Source: Phycisphaerales bacterium
Lineage (GTDB): Bacteria > Planctomycetota > Phycisphaerae > Phycisphaerales > UBA1924
Assembly: GCA_015487555.1 (NCBI GenBank)
Contig: WFPK01000025.1
Location: forward strand, 1 to 64,000
DNA: 64,000 bases
Direction of reading: 5' to 3'
Positions 2,674-64,000 of the stretch are shown piece by piece. The notes beneath the pieces are model-generated. The model saw only the letters and a list, made by a program, of their open reading frames with translations. It searched no databases and had not been told where the DNA came from. Position numbers and translations under genes: made by a program. Each line of letters opens with the position of its first letter. Positions within the stretch are counted from its first letter, which is position 1.

Positions 2674-2695
2674 CAAGTATTTGAAATCCCCATCC

Positions 2696-2789
2696 GGGTG
2701 CCACGCCTTGACCGTCTTCGGCAAGGCGTGTCTTGTTCCCTACTCAACGCAAGAACACTGCTTGCCGAAGACGGTCAAGCAGCGGTACC
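2696..2789. repeat. Double-hairpin palindromic repeat (family A, divergent copy)
   Basis: 19-bp perfect inverted repeat CTTGACCGTCTTCGGCAAG (2707-2725) / CTTGCCGAAGACGGTCAAG (2761-2779). Each arm is also its own hairpin: CACGCCTTG/CAAGGCGTG (2702-2710/2722-2730) and CTGCTTG/CAAGCAG (2758-2764/2776-2782). Confidence 0.85.
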
Positions 2790-2811
2790 TTTGTGAGGTA
2801 TCGGGTCAAGA

Positions 2812-10762: not shown

Positions 10763-10771
10763 ACAACTCCC

Positions 10772-10850
10772 GGTGGCCCGGCTCGCCGAGCCGGGTCTTC
10801 TTTCAATGATCGTGAACCCCAAAGAGCCTGGTTCGGCGAACCGGGCCACC
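10772..10850. repeat. Double-hairpin palindromic element (family B, REP/BIME-like), intergenic copy
   Basis: GGTGGCCCGGCTCGCCGAGCCGGGTCTTC + spacer + GAGCCTGGTTCGGCGAACCGGGCCACC; outer arms GGTGGCCC/GGGCCACC; lies between convergent genes. Confidence 0.9.
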
Positions 10851-10855
10851 AAGAG

Positions 10856-11704
10856 TCACACCGCGCTGGGATGCCAGATCGTCTTGAACTCCACAAACGG
10901 ATCAATCCAGTTCGGCCCTTCGCACTGGGCATCGTCAAAGAAGTCGATGTCTTCGCGGATGGTGACTCGTTTGAGATTATCCGCCGAGCCCCGCCGGAGA
11001 AGTGTCCGGTGCTCGTCGCTGACGCCACTGGCGTGAATCCCGATCAACTCACGATGCGAACTGAAATGCTCGACGAGCTCATCGCGGTACCCGCTGAGCA
11101 GGTTGACGATGCCGCCGGGCAGGTCACTCGTCGCGATGGCTTCACTCAAGATCATCGCCGGCACCGGGTTCTTTTCGCTGGCAAGCACGACACATGCATT
11201 GCCCGCTGCGATCACGGGGGCAATCAACGACACCACCCCGAGTAGTGCAGGCTCATCGGGGGCAATCACGCCCACCGTGCCCATCGCGAACGGGATCGTA
11301 AAGTTATGGTAAGGCCCCGCGACCGGGTTCGTCCCGCCCATCACCTGGGCGTATTTGTCCGTCCACCCTGCAAAGTGCACCACGCGATCAATCGCGGCAT
11401 CGACTTCTTTTTCGCCGCCTTGACCAATTGCGTGGGCGAGTTCTAATCGCTTGCCCTCCATCATCTCAGCGAGCCGATAGAGCACCTGCCCGCGCAGATA
11501 CGCTGTGGCGTTGGCCCATGCCCCTTGGGCCTTGCTCGCCGCTTCGACCGCGTTGCGCACATCCTTGCGCGACGCCCGGCAGACATGGGCAACCAGATTC
11601 TGCGCATTGTCATGCACCTCGATCGTCCGTCCCGATTCGGTCCGAGGAAACTTGCCTCCGATGGCCAGTTTGTAGGTCTTGATGATGGGGACTCGGTCAC
11701 TCAT
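10856..11704 (-). CDS. Truncated aldehyde dehydrogenase-fold protein (no catalytic C-terminal half)
   Basis: IKTYKLAIGGKFPRTESGRTIEVHD..., AMGTVGVIAPDEPALLGVVSLIAPVIAAGNACVVLASEKNPVPAMILSEAIATSDLPGGIVNLLSG; lacks the GQxCxxxxR active-site Cys region. Confidence 0.8.
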   Translation of the reverse strand: MSDRVPIIKTYKLAIGGKFPRTESGRTIEVHDNAQNLVAHVCRASRKDVRNAVEAASKAQGAWANATAYLRGQVLYRLAEMMEGKRLELAHAIGQGGEKEVDAAIDRVVHFAGWTDKYAQVMGGTNPVAGPYHNFTIPFAMGTVGVIAPDEPALLGVVSLIAPVIAAGNACVVLASEKNPVPAMILSEAIATSDLPGGIVNLLSGYRDELVEHFSSHRELIGIHASGVSDEHRTLLRRGSADNLKRVTIREDIDFFDDAQCEGPNWIDPFVEFKTIWHPSAV

Positions 11705-27735: not shown

Positions 27736-27770
27736 ATGCCGATCCTCTTGCTTTGTCCCTCGGTCGTGGC

Positions 27771-27913
27771 TGACGGCTCAAAGGCATCCCATCGGGTGCC
27801 ACTACTCGCCGTCTTCGGTGCCGTCGTGTCTTTGTTTGGTTGAGCACACGGGCACTACTGCGCCCTTCGGGCGAGTAGTGGCACCCAGATTCGGATTGAT
27901 AATCGAGCCGTCA
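27771..27913. repeat. Double-hairpin palindromic repeat (family A) with terminal inverted repeats
   Basis: TGACGGCTC (27771-27779) / GAGCCGTCA (27905-27913); GGGTGCCACTACTCGCC (27794-27810) / GGCGAGTAGTGGCACCC (27870-27886). Same layout as 49735-49888. Confidence 0.9.
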
Positions 27914-28065
27914 GATGCGACCGAGCTCATCGTCGCCCTTGCCTTCCTTTCTGAATCCTTATTCTGCCAGAACCAAATGGGTATGTATCGGGTATAGACT
28001 CAGAGAACGACCAATCGGCGTTCCCGTGTATGTGCGGGGGCGTTTGTGTCCATATGGAGGCCATC

Positions 28066-33570: not shown

Positions 33571-35067
33571 ATGCCCATGTTGAGCATGAAAGATGCCTAT
33601 GGCAACGCCAAGGCGTTGTACGATAAAGGATTTTATCGGGCTGCGGTGCATGCCTCGGAGGTGCTTTATAAGCAGATGCCGCACCATCCGCCGATCGTTG
33701 CCCTTTATGTGGGCTCATTGCTGCGTATTCAGCGGTTCGAAGACGGGGTGCGGATCGCATCGCGGGCATTGCGTCATATCACGCACAAAGAGCATCGGAT
33801 CGCGATTATCACTCAGCTCACCGAGGGGATGACGCAGGCGGGTCAGCTCGATGGCGCGATCGAGCTGGTACGCAAGGAGCTCGATGCCCAGCCTGACCAT
33901 CAATCGCTTATCGGAGCGTACACCCACTTGCTGGTGGTGAACAATCAGCGCGAGGAGGCGATCGAGTATATTGATGCGCTGCGGGCGCGTGGGATCGAGG
34001 GGCTTTCGATTGCAGCGGTCTTCGGGCGGGCGGTTTTGCGAACGGATCGGCGCGACGAAGCGATCGAGTGGCTGACCAGGTTACTTGAGACTCAGGCAGG
34101 TGCATCCGATGCCCGCAAGCTCCAGGCGCTCAACTCGCTGGGACATCTGCTCGACCGGGCCAAGCGCTATGACGAGGCGATGGAGGCTTTCAAGCGTTCC
34201 AATGCGTTGCACGAAGCTGACTATGTGGATCAGCGTGTACAGGTGCTCGAAGAGTCGATTATCGCCAACTGGACCAGCGATCGGTTCCGTGGGGCGAAGC
34301 GCCCCGAGCCCTCGGGCCCGCGTCCGGTGTTTATTGTCGGGATGCCCCGATCGGGGACGACGCTGACCGAGCAGATCATTGATGCGCATCCCAAGGGATA
34401 CGGCGCGGGCGAGCTGGGGCTGATCTCGGAGCTCTTCCGCGGGTTGGCCAAATCGGAAATGAATCCCTACGATACGCCTCCCGATGAGTATGACCCCGAG
34501 AAGCTCGCCGAGGCTGCCAGGATCTATCGCCAGGAGACCGCCGCGATGGCCAACGATGAGTCGGTCGAGGTGATTGTCGATAAGGCACCGATGAACTTCA
34601 ACTACCTGGGGATGATCGCGTTGGCGTTTCCCGATGCGCGGATTATTCATTGTCAGCGTGATCCGCGGGATAACTGTTTGTCGTGCTTTTTCCAGCTGCT
34701 CAACGCCGGGCACGCCTATAGCTTCGATCTCAAAGACTGCGGGCTGTTCTACCGCCACTACCGCGCGATCGTCGAGCACTACACCGAGCTGCTGGGTTCG
34801 GATCCAGTCAACATGCCGATCTTTGAGAATGTGTATGAGGACATGGTCGCCGATCAGGAAAAACGCACCCGCGAGCTGCTCGATTTCATCGGGCTCGATT
34901 TTGACCCGGCCTGCCTGGATTTCCACAAAACCGGGCGGGTGGCGATCACGCTGAGCAACGAGCAGGTCCGTCAGCCGATATACAAATCATCGACCAAACG
35001 CTATGAGCGGTACAGCAAGCACATCGGTCCGATGGTCGAAGCTCTCGGAGATGTGATCCGGGATTGA
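33571..35067 (+). CDS. TPR + sulfotransferase domain protein
   Basis: N-terminal TPR-like repeats; RPVFIVGMPRSGTTLTEQIIDAHPKGYGAGEL (5'-PSB loop), ARIIHCQRDPRDNCLSCFFQL. Confidence 0.88.
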   Translation: MPMLSMKDAYGNAKALYDKGFYRAAVHASEVLYKQMPHHPPIVALYVGSLLRIQRFEDGVRIASRALRHITHKEHRIAIITQLTEGMTQAGQLDGAIELVRKELDAQPDHQSLIGAYTHLLVVNNQREEAIEYIDALRARGIEGLSIAAVFGRAVLRTDRRDEAIEWLTRLLETQAGASDARKLQALNSLGHLLDRAKRYDEAMEAFKRSNALHEADYVDQRVQVLEESIIANWTSDRFRGAKRPEPSGPRPVFIVGMPRSGTTLTEQIIDAHPKGYGAGELGLISELFRGLAKSEMNPYDTPPDEYDPEKLAEAARIYRQETAAMANDESVEVIVDKAPMNFNYLGMIALAFPDARIIHCQRDPRDNCLSCFFQLLNAGHAYSFDLKDCGLFYRHYRAIVEHYTELLGSDPVNMPIFENVYEDMVADQEKRTRELLDFIGLDFDPACLDFHKTGRVAITLSNEQVRQPIYKSSTKRYERYSKHIGPMVEALGDVIRD

Positions 35068-40055: not shown

Positions 40056-41513
40056 ATGGCCAAGAACAAGCACAAAGCTGCCCAATGCTACCGCAAAGGG
40101 GTCGAAGCGATCAAAATCGAGAACTTCGGGGTCGCCAAGGGCATGCTCACCAAGGCCTACGAACTCGACAAGGATAATCCCGACATCATGATGAAGCTCG
40201 GGCAGGTGCTGGTGGCTTCGGGGTATACACAAGAAGCAGTCGAGGTCTTGCGCCGGTGTATCAAGCGCAAGCCCAACTTTCCCGATTCGCTCTTGCTCTT
40301 GTCGCAGGCGTACATGGGGCTGGGGCGGATCGAGGATATGCACGCGACGCTCGATAAGGCCTTGGCGTGGGACCCGACGCATGGGGCGTGTTTGCATGCC
40401 AAGGTGATCGGGTACATCAATGCTGGCGAGCTCGAACTCGCCAGCGAGGTGCTCGATCGGGCCAAGGGGATAGATGATCCTCACCCACTGATTTTGCTCT
40501 CGCAGGCCAAGCTCGCGCGGGCGAAGAAGGAATACTCGATCGGGGTCGATGCTGCCAACGCGCTGCTCGAACACCCCCGAGCGCTCGATCGGCACAAGCG
40601 CTCGGCCCGGTTCGAGCTCGGGCATCTCCATGATGCGATGGGTGAGTATGACCAGGCGTTTGCATTTTTTAAGCTCGCCAACTCGGGGCATATTCATGGG
40701 AAGGTTCTGCATGCCGATTCGATCATCTCGATGTGGACGCCTGAGATGCTCAAAGCGATCCCCGAGTCCACGATCGAGACCCAGCGCCCGGTGTTTATCG
40801 TCGGGATGCCCAGAACCGGGACGACCCTGACCGAGCAGATTCTTATCGCGCATCCGCTTGTTGGCGGGGTGGGCGAGTGTCCACAGATGATGCAGATGCT
40901 TCGGCGTCGCTCGCCGACTTCGCTGAGCATCGCTGAGGTCGATGCCTATGCCCGCGAGTATATCGAGCTCTGCGATGGGAATGTTGATGCGGGGATCACC
41001 CGCGTGATCGACAAGCACATCGGCGCCGAGCGGACACTCGGGCTCATCAGCCGACTCTTCCCCAATGCCAAGGTGATCCACTGTCAGCGGGACCCGGTCG
41101 ATACCTGCCTGAGCTCGTATTTCCAGAACTTTGGCACCAATGTGCCCTACTCGCGTGACCTTGCCCAGCTCGGCAAGCACTTTGTCGCGTATCAACGGGT
41201 GATGGCGCACTGGTACGAAGTGCTCGAGATCGAGATTCTGCCCAATCCATATGAAGAGCTCGTCGCTGATCCTGAGCCCAGGTCGCGGGCATTGGTTGCG
41301 CATGTCGGGCTCGAGTTTGATCAGCGGTGTTTGCGGTTCCATGAATCGCGAGCGCATGTCAGCACCGCCAGCAGCGTGCAGGTGCGCAGCCCGATCTACC
41401 AATCGAGCAAACAACGCTGGCGCAACTATGAGCATCACCTTGGTCCATTGATCGATCAGCTTGGCGAGTTTGCCCAAGGGGCGAGGCCTTTTGTCTCAAA
41501 GCACGGAGCGTAG
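40056..41513 (+). CDS. TPR + sulfotransferase domain protein
   Basis: Start MAKNKHKAAQCYRKGVEAIK; TPRs; RPVFIVGMPRTGTTLTEQILIAHPLVGGVGE; AKVIHCQRDPVDTCLSSYFQNFG. Confidence 0.88.
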   Translation: MAKNKHKAAQCYRKGVEAIKIENFGVAKGMLTKAYELDKDNPDIMMKLGQVLVASGYTQEAVEVLRRCIKRKPNFPDSLLLLSQAYMGLGRIEDMHATLDKALAWDPTHGACLHAKVIGYINAGELELASEVLDRAKGIDDPHPLILLSQAKLARAKKEYSIGVDAANALLEHPRALDRHKRSARFELGHLHDAMGEYDQAFAFFKLANSGHIHGKVLHADSIISMWTPEMLKAIPESTIETQRPVFIVGMPRTGTTLTEQILIAHPLVGGVGECPQMMQMLRRRSPTSLSIAEVDAYAREYIELCDGNVDAGITRVIDKHIGAERTLGLISRLFPNAKVIHCQRDPVDTCLSSYFQNFGTNVPYSRDLAQLGKHFVAYQRVMAHWYEVLEIEILPNPYEELVADPEPRSRALVAHVGLEFDQRCLRFHESRAHVSTASSVQVRSPIYQSSKQRWRNYEHHLGPLIDQLGEFAQGARPFVSKHGA

Positions 41514-41517
41514 TTTT

Positions 41518-42975
41518 ATGATGTCTCAGTTTTCCAACTTTGGTTCGGGTGCACCGGTATTGACTGCCTATGACAAGGCGGTCAACAACTGCCGAGGCTT
41601 GGTCGAGGCGGGTCAGTATGACGCAGCAATCCAGATGTTGCGTGAGGTACTCAAGCAATCGCCTCGGGATGTGCAGGTGCTCCGGATGCTTGGGCATTCG
41701 CTGATGATGATCGATTCGCCGGTCGAAGCGATCCGGAATCTGACCTTCGCCAGCAAGCTCGACCCCAGGAATCCGGATCTGCTCTGTGACTTGGCTTCTG
41801 CGCTTCGCAGGATGGATGAGATGCGCAAAGCCCACCAGGCAGCCGACAATGCCCTCAAACTCGCGCCGAGTTACCCACGCGCGGTCATGACCAAAGCCCG
41901 CCTGCTCCAATCGCATGGGCAATCTCAGCGGGCCTACGAGCTGGTCGATCAGGCACTCGAGCAGAAGTTCGATCCGATGCTCATCGCCACCTACGGGCAG
42001 CTCTGCCGAGAGCTCAAGTACCTGAGCAAGGGGATCGACACGATGCGAAAAGCCCTCGAGATCCCAACACTGACGCGGGCAGCTCGGACAGATATCCTGA
42101 TGGTGCTCGGGCATCTGCTCGATTCGGCAGGCGAATACGACGAAGCGTTCGAGTGTTTCCGCAAGGGCAACGCGATGAGCGACGAACCTTCGCATGTGAA
42201 TATCGAGAAATACATCGAACGATGGGATCCCGAGGAGTTTGCCAAGGTGCCGACATCAGAGCTTGATGGATCGCGGGCGGTGTTCATCGTCGGCATGCCC
42301 CGATCGGGCACCACGCTCACCGAGCAGATCATCGCTTCGCACCCCTTGGCAGGCGGGATCGGCGAGAGTTTGCTCCTGGGCACATTCACACGCAACAAAG
42401 AGCTCAAAGAATACGACCAGGCCTATATCAATCAGACCGGCAGGACCTATCTCGATATGCTCGACGAGCATTTCCCCGATAAGTCAATCAAACGCGTTTG
42501 CGATAAGATGCCCGAGAACTATTACTACCTCGGGTATGTTTCAAAGTTTCTCCCCGGGGCTCACATCATCCATTGCAAGCGCAATCCGATCGACACCTGC
42601 CTCTCGATCTACTTCCAACGCTTTGGCCCGCGCCTGACCTACGCGACCGATATCGAGCACTGCGCCAAGCAGTACCTCGTGTATACCAAAGTGATGAAAC
42701 ACCTGAGCGAGCACTTTGACATTTCGATGCATGATGCGGTCTACGAGCAGACCACCACCAATCCAGAAGAGTCGATCCGGGCGATGCTCGATCATATCGG
42801 GCTGCCCTTTGACCAGGCGTGCATGGAGTTCCACAAGAGCAAGAAAGCAGTGCACACCGCCAGCGCAGCCCAGATTCGTCAGCCGATGTATACCAGCTCG
42901 ATGCAACGATGGAAAAACTACGAAAAACACATCGGCCCGATGATCGAGATCCTTACGCCCGTGCTTGAAGAGTGA
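41518..42975 (+). CDS. TPR + sulfotransferase domain protein
   Basis: TPRs; RAVFIVGMPRSGTTLTEQIIASHPLAGGIGE; AHIIHCKRNPIDTCLSIYFQRFG. Confidence 0.88.
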   Translation: MMSQFSNFGSGAPVLTAYDKAVNNCRGLVEAGQYDAAIQMLREVLKQSPRDVQVLRMLGHSLMMIDSPVEAIRNLTFASKLDPRNPDLLCDLASALRRMDEMRKAHQAADNALKLAPSYPRAVMTKARLLQSHGQSQRAYELVDQALEQKFDPMLIATYGQLCRELKYLSKGIDTMRKALEIPTLTRAARTDILMVLGHLLDSAGEYDEAFECFRKGNAMSDEPSHVNIEKYIERWDPEEFAKVPTSELDGSRAVFIVGMPRSGTTLTEQIIASHPLAGGIGESLLLGTFTRNKELKEYDQAYINQTGRTYLDMLDEHFPDKSIKRVCDKMPENYYYLGYVSKFLPGAHIIHCKRNPIDTCLSIYFQRFGPRLTYATDIEHCAKQYLVYTKVMKHLSEHFDISMHDAVYEQTTTNPEESIRAMLDHIGLPFDQACMEFHKSKKAVHTASAAQIRQPMYTSSMQRWKNYEKHIGPMIEILTPVLEE

Positions 42976-49559: not shown

Positions 49560-49734
49560 CGAGAGATGATGTGCGAACGGATGGGCTTTTTCTGGCGGGG
49601 ATATCGTTACCAAAGGATGTCGGCTTAGACGCAGGCAGGATATGCGACAGGAATGTGTTGATGCGCCCAAAAACAACCCAAAGCTGGGGCATCGCGCGGT
49701 TGAGAAGCTTTGGAATCGGTGGGCTTCCTAGGGC

Positions 49735-49888
49735 GTGTCTGACGGCTCAAAGACATCCCATCGGGTGCCACGACTCGCCGTCTTGGGTGCAGTCGTGCTT
49801 TGGTTTCTCCGCCATCAAAGAACACGACTGCGCCCTTCGGGCGAGTCGTGGCACCCAGATTCGGATTGATAAACGAGCCGTCAGACAC
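49735..49888. repeat. Double-hairpin palindromic repeat (family A) with 14-bp terminal inverted repeats
   Basis: GTGTCTGACGGCTC (49735-49748) / GAGCCGTCAGACAC (49875-49888); GGGTGCCACGACTCGCC (49763-49779) / GGCGAGTCGTGGCACCC (49840-49856). Confidence 0.9.
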
Positions 49889-49951
49889 GATCGAGGCGGG
49901 CTTCCTCCAGGTGGGTTTTCCGGGCGGGAAGCTTGGGGGATGCCGAGCCGA

Positions 49952-52612
49952 TCAGACATCGAGATTCTTGACTTCGAGGGCGTGGTCTTCGATATACTTC
50001 CTTCGAGGCTCGACATGCTCGCCCATCAAGAGCGAGAACAGGTTGTCCGCTTCGCCTGCCTGATCCCACTGGACGCGGAACATCGAGCGGACCTCGTGGT
50101 CCATCGTGGTCTCCCAGAGCTGGATCGCATCCATCTCGCCCAATCCCTTGAATCGCTTGACTTCCATGCCTCGGCGTCCGATCTCATGAAGAGCACTGAG
50201 AATGGCAGGGATATTTTCTGCTTCGACAATTTTCGAACTTGCTGTTGAAACGGTTTCGTTTTCATCGTTTGGGATGTCGAGCTTGGTGCTCTTGCCAGTC
50301 TTGGTCGTGCTCCAGGCGAACCGGGCGGGCATCTTGTCGCCAGTGATCGACTCTTCCTGAACCAGGGCATAATCATTGATGTCGATGCCCAGCTCGGTAA
50401 GCTCGGCGAAGATGACAGCGAGTTCGCGGTTTTCATGGAGCTCGCGGACGGTGGCAACAGGGGCATTGATCTCGGCGATGGCATCAGATTCGGAAGGGGC
50501 GCCCGGGAGCTCGATCCCTTCGATGGCATCCTCTTCGATGTCGTCGGAATGACGCCAGTTGTTCTGGGCGATGACTTCCAACGCTTCGGTCTCTGACCAC
50601 GCGTATTGGCTCGTAGCCTGTGTCGCCACGATGTGGGTCGGAAGGACGCCATCGCGGCGGGCTTCGAGCAGATCGACAAACTTGGTGCCCCGACGCTCTG
50701 CAACTTCAACAAGCTCACCCAGACGCGAGATGGCGCGAACAAGCCGCTTTGCATCGTTGCCCGTGATCTCGGCGATGGTTTCAGGTTGATCGCCGATGCG
50801 GGTGTTGTCGATATCGCGGATGAGCAGCGACGAGCCTTCGAGCCCAAGCTCGGTCAGCACCGCGTCGAGCTTGCCCTCGTTGAGCACATACTGCGACTTC
50901 TTGCCTTTGATAATCTGATACAACGGCGGCTGGGCGATGTAGATATGCCCGCGCCGGAGTAACTCGTTCATATGACGGAAAAAGAAAGTCAACAACAAGG
51001 TCCGGATGTGCGACCCGTCGACATCGGCGTCGGTCATGATGATAATCTTGCCGTACCGGAGTTTGGAGATATCGAAATCGCCTCCGATGCCGCAGCGGAG
51101 CGCGCCGATGAGTGTGCGGATTTCTTCAAAGCCCAGCACCTTGTCGATGCGTGCGCGTTCGACATTGAGAATCTTCCCCTTGAGCGGCAAGATCGCCTGC
51201 GTTTCGACATCGCGCCCCTGGGTCGCTGATCCACCCGCCGAGTCGCCTTCGACAATGAAGAGTTCTGCGCGGTCGAGGTCCTTGGTTTTGCAATCGCGGA
51301 GCTTGTGAGGCATCGAGCCTGAATCGAGGGCGGTTTTGCGCCGGGTGAGCTCGCGGGCTTTGCGGGCAGCTTCGCGGGCCTGGGCAGCGACGATGCCCTT
51401 CAAACACAGCTTTTTGGCTTCGGCGGGGTGTTCTTCGAGCCAGTTGTTGAGGGCTTCTTGAACGGTGCCCGAGACAAAGGATTCGATCTCTGGGTTGAGG
51501 AGTTTCTCTTTGGGCTGATTGTTGAACTGGGGGTCGGGGAGTTTGACCGAGACGATGGCGATCAAGCCTTCGCGCAGGTCATCGCCCGATGGGTTGGGGT
51601 CTTTGTCTTTGAGGAACCCGAGTCGGCGGGCGTAGCTGTTGAGTGTGCGGGTGAGTGCGGTTTTGAATCCTTGCCCGTGTGTTCCCCCGTCGGCGTTGTT
51701 GATGTTGTTGGCGAAGGTGAGGAGGTTTTCGGAGTACCCATCGTGGTATTGGAGCGCGATCTCGCAGAGCATGTTCTCTTCAGCGATTTCATTGCGGAGG
51801 AAGATCGGCGAGGAGATCGCGGTCTTGCCCTTCATGAGGTGGACAACATATTCGAGGAGCCCGTTGTCGGCCTTGAATGAATCGTGCTTGATTTTGCCAT
51901 CGGCACCGACGCGTTCGTCGGTGAGGCGGATCGCGACGCCGGGGTTGAGGTAGGCCAGTTCGCGGAGTCGATGGGCCAAGACAGTGTAGTCGAAGGTGAC
52001 ATCTTCGAAGATTTCGGTGTCGGGCTTGAAGACGATGGTGGTGCCGGTTGCGCGGGTGGCATTCTCGGGGATTTTGCCGACATCGTAGAGCGGTTTGGTG
52101 ACGACGCCTCGCTCGAAGGCGATGGCTTTGATCTCGCCGTCGCGCCAGACCTCTGCTTCGAGCATGGACGAGAGGGCATTGACACACGAGACGCCCACGC
52201 CGTGAAGACCGCCCGAGACTTTGTATGCCGAGTCTTCTTGTTGGAACTTTCCGCCGGCGTGAAGTTTGGTGAGGACGACTTCGATGGCGGGTTTGCCGTT
52301 GATTGTGGGGTCGTCGTTGTTGGTGACGGGGTCGGTGGGGATTCCTCGTCCGTCGTCGGTGACTTTGATTGAGCCGTCGGCTTGGATGGTGACGGAGACA
52401 AAGGTGGCAAAGCCGGCCATAGCCTCGTCGATGGAGTTATCGACGACTTCGTAGACGAGGTGGTGGAGGGCACCGAGTCCTGTGCCTCCGATGTACATGC
52501 CGGGTCGCTTGCGGACCGCTTCGAGTCCTTCGAGGACCTTGATCTGGTCCGAGGAGTACTCGGTGTTGGGGGCGGATTGTGAAACGGGATTGGTGTCTTG
52601 TTGTTCGGTCAT
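49952..52612 (-). CDS. gyrB: DNA gyrase subunit B
   Basis: YSSDQIKVLEGLEAVRKRPGMYIGGTGLGALHHLVYEVVDNSIDEAMAG, VEGDSAGGSATQGRDVETQAILPLKGKILNVERAR, RFKGLGEMDAIQLWETTM. Start at MTEQQDTNPVSQ. Confidence 0.97.
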   Translation of the reverse strand: MTEQQDTNPVSQSAPNTEYSSDQIKVLEGLEAVRKRPGMYIGGTGLGALHHLVYEVVDNSIDEAMAGFATFVSVTIQADGSIKVTDDGRGIPTDPVTNNDDPTINGKPAIEVVLTKLHAGGKFQQEDSAYKVSGGLHGVGVSCVNALSSMLEAEVWRDGEIKAIAFERGVVTKPLYDVGKIPENATRATGTTIVFKPDTEIFEDVTFDYTVLAHRLRELAYLNPGVAIRLTDERVGADGKIKHDSFKADNGLLEYVVHLMKGKTAISSPIFLRNEIAEENMLCEIALQYHDGYSENLLTFANNINNADGGTHGQGFKTALTRTLNSYARRLGFLKDKDPNPSGDDLREGLIAIVSVKLPDPQFNNQPKEKLLNPEIESFVSGTVQEALNNWLEEHPAEAKKLCLKGIVAAQAREAARKARELTRRKTALDSGSMPHKLRDCKTKDLDRAELFIVEGDSAGGSATQGRDVETQAILPLKGKILNVERARIDKVLGFEEIRTLIGALRCGIGGDFDISKLRYGKIIIMTDADVDGSHIRTLLLTFFFRHMNELLRRGHIYIAQPPLYQIIKGKKSQYVLNEGKLDAVLTELGLEGSSLLIRDIDNTRIGDQPETIAEITGNDAKRLVRAISRLGELVEVAERRGTKFVDLLEARRDGVLPTHIVATQATSQYAWSETEALEVIAQNNWRHSDDIEEDAIEGIELPGAPSESDAIAEINAPVATVRELHENRELAVIFAELTELGIDINDYALVQEESITGDKMPARFAWSTTKTGKSTKLDIPNDENETVSTASSKIVEAENIPAILSALHEIGRRGMEVKRFKGLGEMDAIQLWETTMDHEVRSMFRVQWDQAGEADNLFSLLMGEHVEPRRKYIEDHALEVKNLDV

Positions 52613-52799
52613 GGTGTGCTTATATGGGGCGTCCGTATGCCGATGAAACCGGAGTGATCGAACGCGGAATACTGTGTTGTGGTATCGTGTGCGTACGGGG
52701 CCGTTTGTGGATAATTTCGTACGGCAGATTATAGCGCATTGGGGCGTGTTTTGCTCGCATTTCGAGGCACAAAGCGAGGCATGGATGGGGTTGCATCGG

Positions 52800-53819
52800 A
52801 TGAGCGAAAACACTGAAAAAACAGATGAAAACCTCGATTTTGGGCGTGGGTTGTTCGTGTGCGAGAGTCCCGGGCATGAGTTTGTCGGCATGAGGAAGGC
52901 CGGGGCAGTGATCGGTGTGCTGGGATCGCAGGTCTTTGCCATGTTGCTTTTGATCCCGGGGCTTGGATTCTTCGTGTTGTGGAATCAGTTCGGGGTTTCT
53001 CTTCTCGTGACCGGGCTTGTCACAGGGGCGACGCTGATTGTGGCGGTGGCGATTGGGCTGATTTTTTTGTTGAAGCTCAACAAGATGAATCGCAAACAAT
53101 TACCGGGTGCATTTTTTAGGAAGAAGAGTGACTCGCGGTATCGGGTGCGGGCAGTGATTCCGCAGAAACGCCAAGGTGATGCGATCCACAGGTGGGCCCA
53201 GCTCGCAGCGTATGGGAGGATTGGCGATGGAGATATGGTCAGCGCCGATGAACTTGAGATGGTGCAAGGCGGGTTCGAGCCGATCATTCTTCAACCCTGT
53301 TTTGGGATCAAACGGGATCGCCGATATTGGTGGACCGTTGTCGTGATGTCGGTTGTGGTGGGCGTTGGTACTCTCTTTGGGCTAAGCCTGTTCTTTGGAA
53401 GCTTGACGGATTTGTTGCAGGTGTTTGGCTTTCTGGGGTATGCCGTGATGGGATTGTCGATGGTGGGGGGCGTGGTGGCTGGGGAGTTGATGTGGCCGGT
53501 GTATATCCGGTTGGTTCCTGGGCAGTTGGACATTTTTCGGTATGGTTTTTTGGGATCGGGCAAGCCTGTCGTTGAGCGCTTTGATCTGCGCAAGGTTGGC
53601 GTGTGCGTGGATTTTGGCGGGTACATTGTTTCGCTCGAACCCCAGCGCCCGGTGGGCGAGCCTTTGCCCGCGTTGGTGATGGGCAAGCGCTGGCCCAATG
53701 CCCAGGTATTTCCCGAGTGGTTCGCGCCGACCTATTTTACAAGCGGTTGCAGCCCGGAATCGGCGCGAGTTCGCGCAGCGATTGATCCAGGCGGCCTGGA
53801 CCGACGAGCCTGCGCCTGA
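52800..53819 (+). CDS. Membrane protein of unknown function
   Basis: Start MSENTEKTDENLDFGRGLF; several TM segments. Confidence 0.6.
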   Translation: MSENTEKTDENLDFGRGLFVCESPGHEFVGMRKAGAVIGVLGSQVFAMLLLIPGLGFFVLWNQFGVSLLVTGLVTGATLIVAVAIGLIFLLKLNKMNRKQLPGAFFRKKSDSRYRVRAVIPQKRQGDAIHRWAQLAAYGRIGDGDMVSADELEMVQGGFEPIILQPCFGIKRDRRYWWTVVVMSVVVGVGTLFGLSLFFGSLTDLLQVFGFLGYAVMGLSMVGGVVAGELMWPVYIRLVPGQLDIFRYGFLGSGKPVVERFDLRKVGVCVDFGGYIVSLEPQRPVGEPLPALVMGKRWPNAQVFPEWFAPTYFTSGCSPESARVRAAIDPGGLDRRACA

Positions 53820-60795: not shown

Positions 60796-61848
60796 TTATC
60801 GCGTGATCGGGGATTGTCCCATCACGATCCGGTTGCGTGAGCCCACGCGGACGATCTGGGCGATGAACTGCTGATACTCGAGATCAAGCTGGCGCAGTGT
60901 GGTGCCTTTGGGGAGAGCGGTCAAGAGTGTTGCCGGGCCGGTGCGCCGGGTGTTGAACTGGCGCAGATCGTGCTCATCGAGCTTGGATCGAAACGCACCC
61001 GATGCCGTATCTTTGAGGAGTTGATGCAGGGCCGATTGATAGCGCCCGCCTTGCCCTTCGTTGAGGAAATGGATCAAGGCCCAGACCTGCGCGTAGTAGG
61101 TCAGCGCGGTGGGTTTGCCGGTCGAGGCGCCCATGAGGTCTTGGGGGCGCAGGGTCAGCAGCGAATGGATCGGCATCAGGGCGTCGCGGTTGTGTGCGTC
61201 GCGGAGCTGATCGAACCGCTCGGTGTTGGCCCAGGGGAGGAATCGTGGGTGATCGGGGAACTGCTCGTCCCATTTGAACCCTTCCATTATGCACGCGACG
61301 CCCTCGTCGAGCCAGACGGGCATGGGGTCTTTGAAGGTCGAGTGGGCGTATTGATGCCACCCTTCATGGGCGCAGATGACGAAGGAGTCTTTGGGGCCGA
61401 TGTCGTAGAAGACGCCGATCTGCTTGGCCGAGTATCCGCCTCGCTCGATCGAGAGGTAGATGCCTGCGCGATCGCCCATGAGCGATCGGGTGAGGGTCTC
61501 CCATTGGTTGCGGGTGTCGAAGAAGTAGGTCTCGATGGGCTGATTCGGGCGAGGCAGTCGGGTGATATCGGATTGATAGTGCAGGATCGAGAGCTCGACG
61601 AACGAGGGTAATCGTTCGAGGATTTTGCGATCGGTTGAGGTGGTGCGGATGATCGAGTTGGGGGTGTAGTACGCCCAGCCTGTGTGCCCTTTGAATGTCC
61701 AAAGTTGACGGTCGGCAACGAATCGGGAAACATCGGTGCTTGGATTGATCGCTGGGCCAACCTGCCCGGTTGGCTGGCGCACAGGCACAGAGGCGCACCC
61801 CGCGAGCAGGGTTGCGCCGAGTCCAAGTGTAAGCCAAAGGCGGCTCAT
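60796..61848 (-). CDS. DUF1570-like lipoprotein, putative HExxH metallopeptidase
   Basis: Lipobox LLAGC; ICAHEGWHQYAHSTFKDPMPVWLDEGVACIMEGFKWDE (HExxH plus downstream E); ATGA overlap with valS stop. Confidence 0.78.
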   Translation of the reverse strand: MSRLWLTLGLGATLLAGCASVPVRQPTGQVGPAINPSTDVSRFVADRQLWTFKGHTGWAYYTPNSIIRTTSTDRKILERLPSFVELSILHYQSDITRLPRPNQPIETYFFDTRNQWETLTRSLMGDRAGIYLSIERGGYSAKQIGVFYDIGPKDSFVICAHEGWHQYAHSTFKDPMPVWLDEGVACIMEGFKWDEQFPDHPRFLPWANTERFDQLRDAHNRDALMPIHSLLTLRPQDLMGASTGKPTALTYYAQVWALIHFLNEGQGGRYQSALHQLLKDTASGAFRSKLDEHDLRQFNTRRTGPATLLTALPKGTTLRQLDLEYQQFIAQIVRVGSRNRIVMGQSPITR

Positions 61849-64000
61849 CCGAGTTTGTCCAATGCGGACTTGGTCGCGTCGCGGTCTTTTTCGAGCCCGG
61901 CGAGCTGATCGCGGGTTTGCTCGACGAGATGGGCGGGTGCTTTGTCGGTGTAGCCGGGATTCGAGAGCCGACCCTTGATACCCTTGATGGATTTTTCGAT
62001 GGCTGCGAGTTCTTTTTCGAGCCGATCTTTTTCCGCGCCCGCGTCGAGTGCGTCAGCGAGATTCGAGAGCTGGTACTCGCTGCCCTCGAAGGTAAACGAC
62101 GCTGCCTGCCCGTCGGGGGTGTCGGAGGTGATGGATTCGACCCCGGCGAGGGTTTCGATCAAAGGCGACCACCGCGCGATATCCTCAGCGAGCGATCCCG
62201 ATGCGTGCAGGACAATCCGGCGCTTGGGCGCGACCTGCGACTGGGCCCGGACCTCGCGGATGGTCGAGACCAACGAACGAATCCGCTCGTAGGCCTCCTC
62301 AGCCACTTCATCACGCAGCTCATCGTCAGGCTCGGGCCAACCAGATTGGCAGAGGGTCTGGTTCGATTTCGTGGGCGCAAAGCCGAATCCGGAAATCTCG
62401 CCCAGCGGGATGTCGGCGAGTTGCTCACTCAGGGTTTCGGTGATGAAGGGCATGACCGGGTGCATCAGGCGCAGGATACTCTCGAACACGAGTCGAAGCA
62501 CCGCCCGCTGGTTCGGGTTCTCGGCGATGGTCGGCTTGATCGACTCAAGATACCAATCACAGAAATCACGCCAGAACAGATCATACAGCGTATCGGCGTA
62601 GTCCTTGAACATGTAGTTGCGCTGGGCGGTGTTGATCTTGTTGGTCGCATCAACCACACGCGAGAGCATCCATCGGTCGATCAGGGTGAGTTCCTGCGGA
62701 TCAATCGGCATGCCGATAGGAACAGGATTCTTTTCGAGCATCATCATCGAGAACTTGGCGGCGTTCCAGAGCTTGTTGCACAGGTTGCGTCCCAGATCGA
62801 ACTTGGGCGATGTGTTTTTGCCGGTGGATTCGTCGCGGACGACGGGCATGCGGACATCCTGGGTCTGCGTGGTCATCTGGCAGAGGGTGAACCGCATCGC
62901 GTCAGCGCCGTGGGAGTGGATGATATCGAGGGGGTCTACGCCATTGCCCAGGGACTTGGACATCTTGCGTCCTTCGCCGTCTTGGATCATGGCGTGGATG
63001 AAGACATCTTTGAAGGGGGCAGGGCCAGGTTGATTTTCGGTGGCCCGGTTCGTCGAACCGGGTTCTTGTTGTGCTCCTTGAGGTTCTGAAGACCCGGCTC
63101 GGCGAGCCGGGCCACCGGGGAGGAAGTACCGGTTGAACATGGTCATCCGCGAGACCCAGAGGGTGATGATCTCGCGGGCGGTGGTGAGGACGGAGGTCGG
63201 GTTGTAGGCCGCGAGCATGGACTCGAAATCTTCGATCCCAGTGGAGGCTTTGGCAGCGGCAGCGTCGGGCCAGCCCATTGTCGAGAGCGGCCAGAGCGCA
63301 GAGGAGAACCAGGTGTCGAGGACATCAGGGTCTTGGGTGAATGTACATGATTCAAGAAACTCAACTACTTCGTGATCTGACTCATCCTTTACACATACAA
63401 ACACTTGCTCATCGGTTGAAAGCCATGGCTCATACATTTTGCCTACTGGTCTATTATTCAACCAAACTCTACCTTCTTCGATAAGTTGATTGATCCGTTT
63501 ACTAAAATCAACTACACGCTCTTGCTGTGAACGGTCTTTGGTTCCTCTTCCAATACCAACAGGAATAGGGGGTTCAACAAGGCGCTCGCCGGAACGAATC
63601 CATGTAGGTTTCGAACTCCACACCGGAATCCGATGCCCCCACCAAAGCTGTCGGCTGATGCACCAGTCGCGGAGGTTGTCGTGCCAGGTTTCGTAGGTTT
63701 TGGCGTAGCGGGCGGGGTGGAAGGACATTGAGCCATCGGTTGATTCCCCGGTGGCCCGGCTCGCCGAGCCGGGTTCTTCAGATACACCAGTCAGTGCTGA
63801 TATCACCGACTCGCTGAGCAAACAATGTAGCCATTCATGGCGATGCTTGGTCAGTTCTGCCTTGATGGGATTGTCAACGATGTAGGTGAGGTGGTCAACA
63901 TATTCATTTTCATCTCGAACAATCCGATCAAAGTGTTCATCTTGCCAGAGAGAACCGGTGCGGTTGGACTGGCTGTTGATTGTTCGTGCGGTGTATCGTT
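61845..64000 (-). CDS. valS: Valyl-tRNA synthetase C-terminal half, in an open frame running off the window; frame contains palindromic elements and a RAYT-like segment
   Basis: TYETWHDNLRDWCISRQLWWGHRIPVW, QDPDVLDTWFSSALWPLSTMGWP, PFKDVFIHAMIQDGEGRKMSKSLGNGVDPLDII, C-terminal coiled-coil. ORF track starts at an internal TTG only because the frame is open to the edge. Confidence 0.9.
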   Translation of the reverse strand, partial: RYTARTINSQSNRTGSLWQDEHFDRIVRDENEYVDHLTYIVDNPIKAELTKHRHEWLHCLLSESVISALTGVSEEPGSASRATGESTDGSMSFHPARYAKTYETWHDNLRDWCISRQLWWGHRIPVWSSKPTWIRSGERLVEPPIPVGIGRGTKDRSQQERVVDFSKRINQLIEEGRVWLNNRPVGKMYEPWLSTDEQVFVCVKDESDHEVVEFLESCTFTQDPDVLDTWFSSALWPLSTMGWPDAAAAKASTGIEDFESMLAAYNPTSVLTTAREIITLWVSRMTMFNRYFLPGGPARRAGSSEPQGAQQEPGSTNRATENQPGPAPFKDVFIHAMIQDGEGRKMSKSLGNGVDPLDIIHSHGADAMRFTLCQMTTQTQDVRMPVVRDESTGKNTSPKFDLGRNLCNKLWNAAKFSMMMLEKNPVPIGMPIDPQELTLIDRWMLSRVVDATNKINTAQRNYMFKDYADTLYDLFWRDFCDWYLESIKPTIAENPNQRAVLRLVFESILRLMHPVMPFITETLSEQLADIPLGEISGFGFAPTKSNQTLCQSGWPEPDDELRDEVAEEAYERIRSLVSTIREVRAQSQVAPKRRIVLHASGSLAEDIARWSPLIETLAGVESITSDTPDGQAASFTFEGSEYQLSNLADALDAGAEKDRLEKELAAIEKSIKGIKGRLSNPGYTDKAPAHLVEQTRDQLAGLEKDRDATKSALDKLG
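63039..63116. repeat. Family B double-hairpin element, in frame inside valS (78 bp)
   Basis: GGTGGCCCGGTTCGTCGAACCGGGTTCTTG...GAAGACCCGGCTCGGCGAGCCGGGCCACC; reverse complement aligns with 10772-10850. Encodes GGPARRAGSSEPQGAQQEPGSTNRAT. Confidence 0.9.
63750..63779. repeat. Family B half-element (single hairpin), in frame inside the valS ORF
   Basis: GGTGGCCCGGCTCGCCGAGCCGGGTTCTTC, nearly identical to the first arm of 10772; encodes EEPGSASRAT on the minus strand. Confidence 0.88.
63812..64000 (-). mobile_element. C-terminal part of an IS200-like Y1 / REP-associated tyrosine transposase (RAYT), open to the window edge
   Basis: Minus-strand translation RYTARTINSQSNRTGSLWQDEHFDRIVRDENEYVDHLTYIVDNPIKAELTKHRHEWLHCL matches the family pattern [Y/F]TAR.IN...RTG.lWQ.e.FDRIVRde.E...l.YI..NP.KA.L. 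Confidence 0.82.

Follow-up and report, generated by a model that had tools for sequence, protein, structure and literature searches.

Short repeats of a Phycisphaerales genome probably combine a REPIN with a MITE-like shell

The window, a stretch of 64,000 nt from a 2.64-Mb Phycisphaerales MAG (93% complete), contains two copies of a composite repeat that very probably comprises two mobile layers: a REPIN copied by an IS200-like RAYT and, around it, a MITE-like shell with terminal inverted repeats (TIRs). In each of the two inverted REPs of the inner layer, a conserved GGGTGC head stands 5′ of an imperfect hairpin. This layer is most likely copied in single-stranded form by a RAYT, one of the IS200-like HUH/Y1 transposases. 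This enzyme would read the head together with the hairpin, so that changes in an arm would survive mainly when accompanied by a change in the partner arm. The outer layer would be a shell with 20-nt TIRs that inserts at YTAR targets, probably duplicating TA; a DDE transposase, at a guess similar to those of IS630, probably moves it in trans. Any REPIN inside would travel as a passenger, and the shell has probably brought REPINs of this family to at least 14 distinct places in the genome.

Anatomy and distribution of the repeats

A single repeat family had been described in an earlier note on this DNA, with copies at 27771-27913 and 49735-49888. The places of both copies, their shared ends and their heptamers agree with our analysis, but the borders lie further out, because the inverted repeat runs on to TAGGYCGTGTCTGACGGCTC (Table 1); likewise, the repeat is real but would correspond to two nested mobile elements instead of one. 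The ends of the shell are 20-nt TIRs with the consensus TAGGYCGTGTCTGACGGCTC, adjoining a YTA target. The REPIN of copy 2 (49763-49856) contains two inverted REP hairpins with a GGGTGC head on each, and its heptamers read CACGACT/AGTCGTG/CACGACT/AGTCGTG. Those of copy 1 read CACTACT/cGTCGTG/CACTACT/AGTAGTG, leaving mispaired one of the four hairpins that the two copies have together; this had been half noticed before, as changed heptamers of which the fourth still read GTCGTG. Copy 2 is situated between the 3′ end of gyrB (49952-52942, minus strand) and an upstream gene for a protein similar to PilZ/response regulators, and copy 1 between a thioredoxin-like gene and an S41 peptidase-like gene, these three being named by eye from their translations.

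Table 1. Coordinates in the window of the composite repeats, their parts and a related REPIN
Feature	Position	Strand	Basis
Copy 2 of the composite element (166 bp), TIR shell enclosing a REPIN	49729..49894	+	TIR pair by pattern; nine relatives without TIR at the orthologous gyrB-side locus
Left terminal inverted repeat, TAGGGCGTGTCTGACGGCTC	49729..49748	+	1 mismatch to TAGGYCGTGTCTGACGGCTC
Right terminal inverted repeat, with decay of the outermost bases to TCGA	49875..49894	-	2 mismatches
Copy 2 left REP, head GGGTGC and hairpin CACGACT..AGTCGTG	49763..49797	+	
Copy 2 REPIN spacer, common to most shell-borne copies, random-like among solo REPINs	49798..49822	.	Spacer similarity
Copy 2 right REP, inverted, hairpin CACGACT..AGTCGTG and head	49823..49856	-	
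Composite element copy 1, 165 bp, same shell, different REPIN spacer	27760..27924	+	
REPIN core of copy 1; same spacer without shell at contig C39:7803-7894	27794..27886	+	Alignment
Related solo REPIN, GCCTTGACC subfamily, no shell seen	2695..2790	+	Inverted repeat and head match

The two copies first compared were not the only ones: a search with the pattern GGTGCCACN50-80GTGGCACC identified 52 cores in the 2.64 Mb of the genome, against none for the reversed control pattern. Each core (GGGTGCCAC..GTGGCACCC, about 92 nt) has two inverted hairpins, and alignment of the 104 arms revealed a common layout of a GGTGCC start, a 7-bp stem, an inner stem and a loop. The most frequent stems were CACTACT/AGTAGTG (33 arms) and CACGACT/AGTCGTG (25), followed by CACTGCT/AGCAGTG (nine), CACGCCT/AGGCGTG (six) and CACGGCT/AGCCGTG (five). 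As expected of REPINs, the REPs are paired in inverted orientation with their tags outermost, the copies are many and dispersed, and the hairpin is kept through compensatory changes; however, the GT[AG]G tetranucleotide was not found 5′ of the stem in any of the arms, which all start with GGTGCC, with rare point changes. Fourteen of 46 cores lie within long open frames, most of which look spurious in this G+C-rich genome. A search of the window against Rfam gave no match, and hence no known RNA family, and a search for tRNA and tmRNA found none. Spacer similarity was 0.84 among shell-borne REPINs, compared to 0.57 among solo REPINs and 0.52 among random 24-mers. Inverted repeats at 10769-10858 in the window correspond to a REPIN of a second family (GGTGGCCCGGCTCGCC).

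The outer shell

Searches with the TIR yielded 36+27 matches, against none for the control. The base preceding the terminal TA at the shell ends was C in 119 cases, T in 12, A in one and G in one, resulting in YTA at 131 of the 133 scored ends; since the base inside the TA is nearly constant, we infer that the duplication is likely to be the TA within YTAR. A sample of 59 TIR-paired shells from five congeners, including the genome of the window, was drawn from the TIR matches and is not a census; 44 of them enclosed a matched REP pair, 11 a pair judged by eye to be degenerate, and four, one of these a spurious match, no REP pair at all. The enclosed REPINs belong to about six families, including the GGTGCCAC, GGTGGCCCGG, GGTGCCCCGCTGGTGG, GGTGCCCCGTCGGAGC, CCTCCCCCG and GGTAGAACGGGC types. 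The TIR was present in three of 151 sampled genomes of the order, and the shell is nearly restricted to this genus.

The scarcity of shells without REPs, similar to that reported for Anabaena (PMC3733652), together with the occupation of the same shell by different REPIN families, could suggest that the shell is a palindromic landing site for REPINs, as with the REP dimers of Anabaena variabilis, and not a separate transposon. We consider this unlikely, because copies of the shell, with TIRs that are almost identical and a strong edge of YTA, are found at dozens of sites unrelated to each other, and shell-borne REPINs have spacers in common whereas solo REPINs do not, which indicates that the shell itself multiplies. 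Assuming a shell that transposes, it is conceivable, although we hold it to be doubtful, that it is an obligate REPIN carrier that couples two unrelated systems, single-strand copying by the RAYT and double-strand TIR transposition. Such a shell would repeatedly take up the REPIN family current in a given genome, and might depend on the REP hairpins for its movement.

IS630 and Tc-mariner MITEs are short and non-coding, with TIRs and with TA at their edges in a CTAG-like target. The shell resembles them in all these traits, and its copies are multiple and occupy unrelated sites; it differs in that its interior is, in our reading, a second mobile element and in that no partner transposase was found. 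No autonomous element with the same TIRs was detected, that is, no transposase flanked by shell TIRs and no long TIR pair in the loci searched, and the IS630 label is a guess. The sole DDE_3 (IS630) matches among the congeners, in C36 and in G001:C219, were discarded, being below the cut-off, IS3-like in appearance and lacking the TIRs. Orthologous loci gave no target site duplication and no exact empty site: in G016, the same gene pair has about 67 nt between the aligned parts, compared to 284 nt here, with neither TIR nor core, and this gap is too diverged for the target to be read. In contigs C72, C96 and C33 of genome G000, shell TIRs are arranged in tandem and have CCTAGG in common where they meet; the CTAG formed by the end of one shell seems to serve as insertion site for another.

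The conserved fold of the REPs

The earlier note had proposed that structure is under selection, with folding either as two local hairpins or as one long cruciform; the first of these forms is the one that our counts support. The local 7-bp pairing was perfect in 79 of the 104 arms and imperfect in the other 25, and amounted to 30 mismatches in total, against 70 for cross-pairing and a mean of 106 when the 3′ arms were shuffled (minimum 84 of 2000). With 26 distinct arms, a few of them taken from a congener, 95.6% of the cells were standard pairs and three pairs showed double changes. The covariation score for these arms was 0.246, against 0.083 after shuffling, and was reached by none of 500 shuffles, a count that is not a probability because the arms are related; the signal was lost when the partners were slid. 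Nine REPINs combining CACGCCT/AGG[CT]GTG with CACTGCT/AGCAGTG pair locally (three of them with one G-T wobble) and not across. The base swaps in the arms keep each local hairpin intact, and the compensation is real. The long cruciform was rejected as the conserved fold on the mismatch counts, although the predicted energy minimum of the single strand is a long hairpin. Energy and evolution thus favour different folds. The DNA folding z-scores of the copies, -11.3 and -7.7, speak against a product of chance.

Covariation of the local hairpins would also be expected if they were kept by a host function, as transcription terminator, mRNA stabiliser or protein-binding site, with mobility being secondary, and REPs elsewhere have gained such roles. 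Nevertheless, each of the window copies occupies a gap flanked by unrelated genes, the spacers of solo REPINs look random, the hairpins match no Rfam family and none of nine relatives has a shell TIR at the gyrB-side locus, all of which make this explanation improbable.

Gene conversion within the genome, or template switching between arms, could produce coordinated changes without any structural selection, and homogenisation of the arms by conversion had indeed been put forward. A few shells would fit such a process: the shells of C55 and C30 enclose an inverted core, that of C37 has its arms exchanged around a spacer that kept its orientation, and both arms have the same loop in C104; flips during replication of short inverted repeats would yield these forms. 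Conversion between arms would make them alike, however, and the outer arms differ in 23 of the 52 REPINs, mostly with local pairing retained, which is evidence against homogenisation, and we give this explanation little credence.

Separate movement of the two layers and RAYT genes

The REPIN with spacer TCTTTGTTTGGTTGA was found twice inside the shell, at 27771 and in contig C94, and once outside of it, in contig C39. The flanks of the C39 copy are wholly different, and its match to the other two ends at GGGTGCC..GGCACC; in turn, most copies with the same shell flanks enclose a different spacer. The presence of this REPIN both within and without the shell therefore indicates that it moves on its own. 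A reading of the complete 144-166-bp unit as a single ordinary MITE, with the hairpins as part of its body and no role for a RAYT, is very improbable: although identity between shell-borne copies and the window copy reaches 96% along the entire unit, 38 of the 52 cores have no such shell, the TCTTTGTTTGGTTGA REPIN already contradicts it, and the same hairpins bracket RAYT genes.

The copying of REPINs is attributed to chromosomal RAYTs, of which a genome usually has one. In G006, from the same genus, convergent copies of GGGTGCCACGGCTTGACCGTCTTCGGCAAGCCGTG, an arm that also occurs in the genome of the window, bracket a 169-aa RAYT that scores 110 bits with the NCBIfam REP-associated tyrosine transposase model (cut-off, 80). 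The RAYTs of G002 and G010 carry GGGTGCCCCGACTCGCCGTCTGCGGCGCAGTCGGG. This sequence differs from the main arm in the loop and in one outer stem pair, of which both sides have changed. At most of the intact RAYT loci in the order, the gene has its own outward REPs, headed by GGTGCC or GGTGGC and with a locus-specific stem. Cleavage of the REPs by a RAYT would be the most likely mode of copying. The head of such REP-RAYT pairs in this planctomycetotal order is GGTGCC, and not GT[AG]G. No RAYT with this exact stem was found in the assembly of the window, which is broken at these repeats; its one clear free-standing RAYT (contig C12) carries other REPs, GGTGCCGTGGTTAAAATC. Because the stem of the latter is different, the cognate RAYT would be either absent from this genome or unassembled. 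Shell TIRs do not bracket RAYT loci: the two matches near them belong to a single type of locus, where they lie to one side and at a distance of about 900-1000 bp from the start of the match.

REPINs, or BIMEs, with their RAYT (TnpA-REP) transposases are best known in Proteobacteria (PMC3116915, PMC6006769), where each RAYT is tied to its own REP family (PMC6006769). The elements described here share with them the two inverted REPs, the conserved tag at the outer foot of the hairpin, the variable spacer, the many dispersed copies and, in sister genomes, the bracketing of a transposase gene by its own REPs, whereas they differ in the GGGTGC head, instead of GT[AG]G, in their Phycisphaerales host and in the large share of copies within a MITE-like shell. 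Nesting itself is not new, because REP dimers within palindromes are known as GTAG-15 in Anabaena variabilis and CGTC-1 in Halothiobacillus (PMC3733652). There too a REP dimer lies in a palindromic outer sequence that is seldom without REP; unlike them, the shell described here has TIRs and a YTA edge and, although a single type, holds about six REPIN families that are unrelated to each other and come from different species. As far as the literature searched shows, the association of one TIR shell with many REPIN families, the occurrence of the same REPIN with and without shell in one genome, and the GGTGCC head across an order of Planctomycetota are new. The repeats offer a natural system to separate the role of each transposase and to test which fold is read.

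A RAYT domain was also found within a tRNA synthetase gene. An ORF on the minus strand of contig C25 (C25:61845-65858; 61845-64000 in the window, running on beyond it) encodes a valyl-tRNA synthetase of 1337 aa, which scores above the valS cut-off and whose residues 548-678 are an in-frame RAYT domain (96.9 bits, against a cut-off of 80), whole and with the HUH motif DHVH and the Y motif YIVDNP. This frame also contains REP palindromes of the second family (GGTGGCCCGGCTCGCCGAGCCGGGT), at 63031-63121 and 63745-63774 of the window, translated as PGGPARRAG. A Y1 transposase domain interrupts the same frame in G001, G008, G011, G014, G015, G016 and G018, and the frame is uninterrupted in other congeners; complete frames in the genus have about 1034-1217 aa without the insert and 1295-1440 aa with it. 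The insert is always between the same profile positions, about 375-394, and in G018 a different RAYT type occupies this place. The congener G001 has the same valyl-tRNA synthetase stretch as the window. Similarly, an in-frame RAYT is found inside a MiaA-like tRNA-modification gene in G022 (L184) and inside LeuRS-like class I synthetase frames in two Verrucomicrobia records (L336 and L351). Elsewhere in the window, three paralogous stretches (34319-34413, 40783-40877 and 42272-42366) encode a RPVFIVGMPRSGTTLTEQI-like motif that resembles sulfotransferase P-loops.
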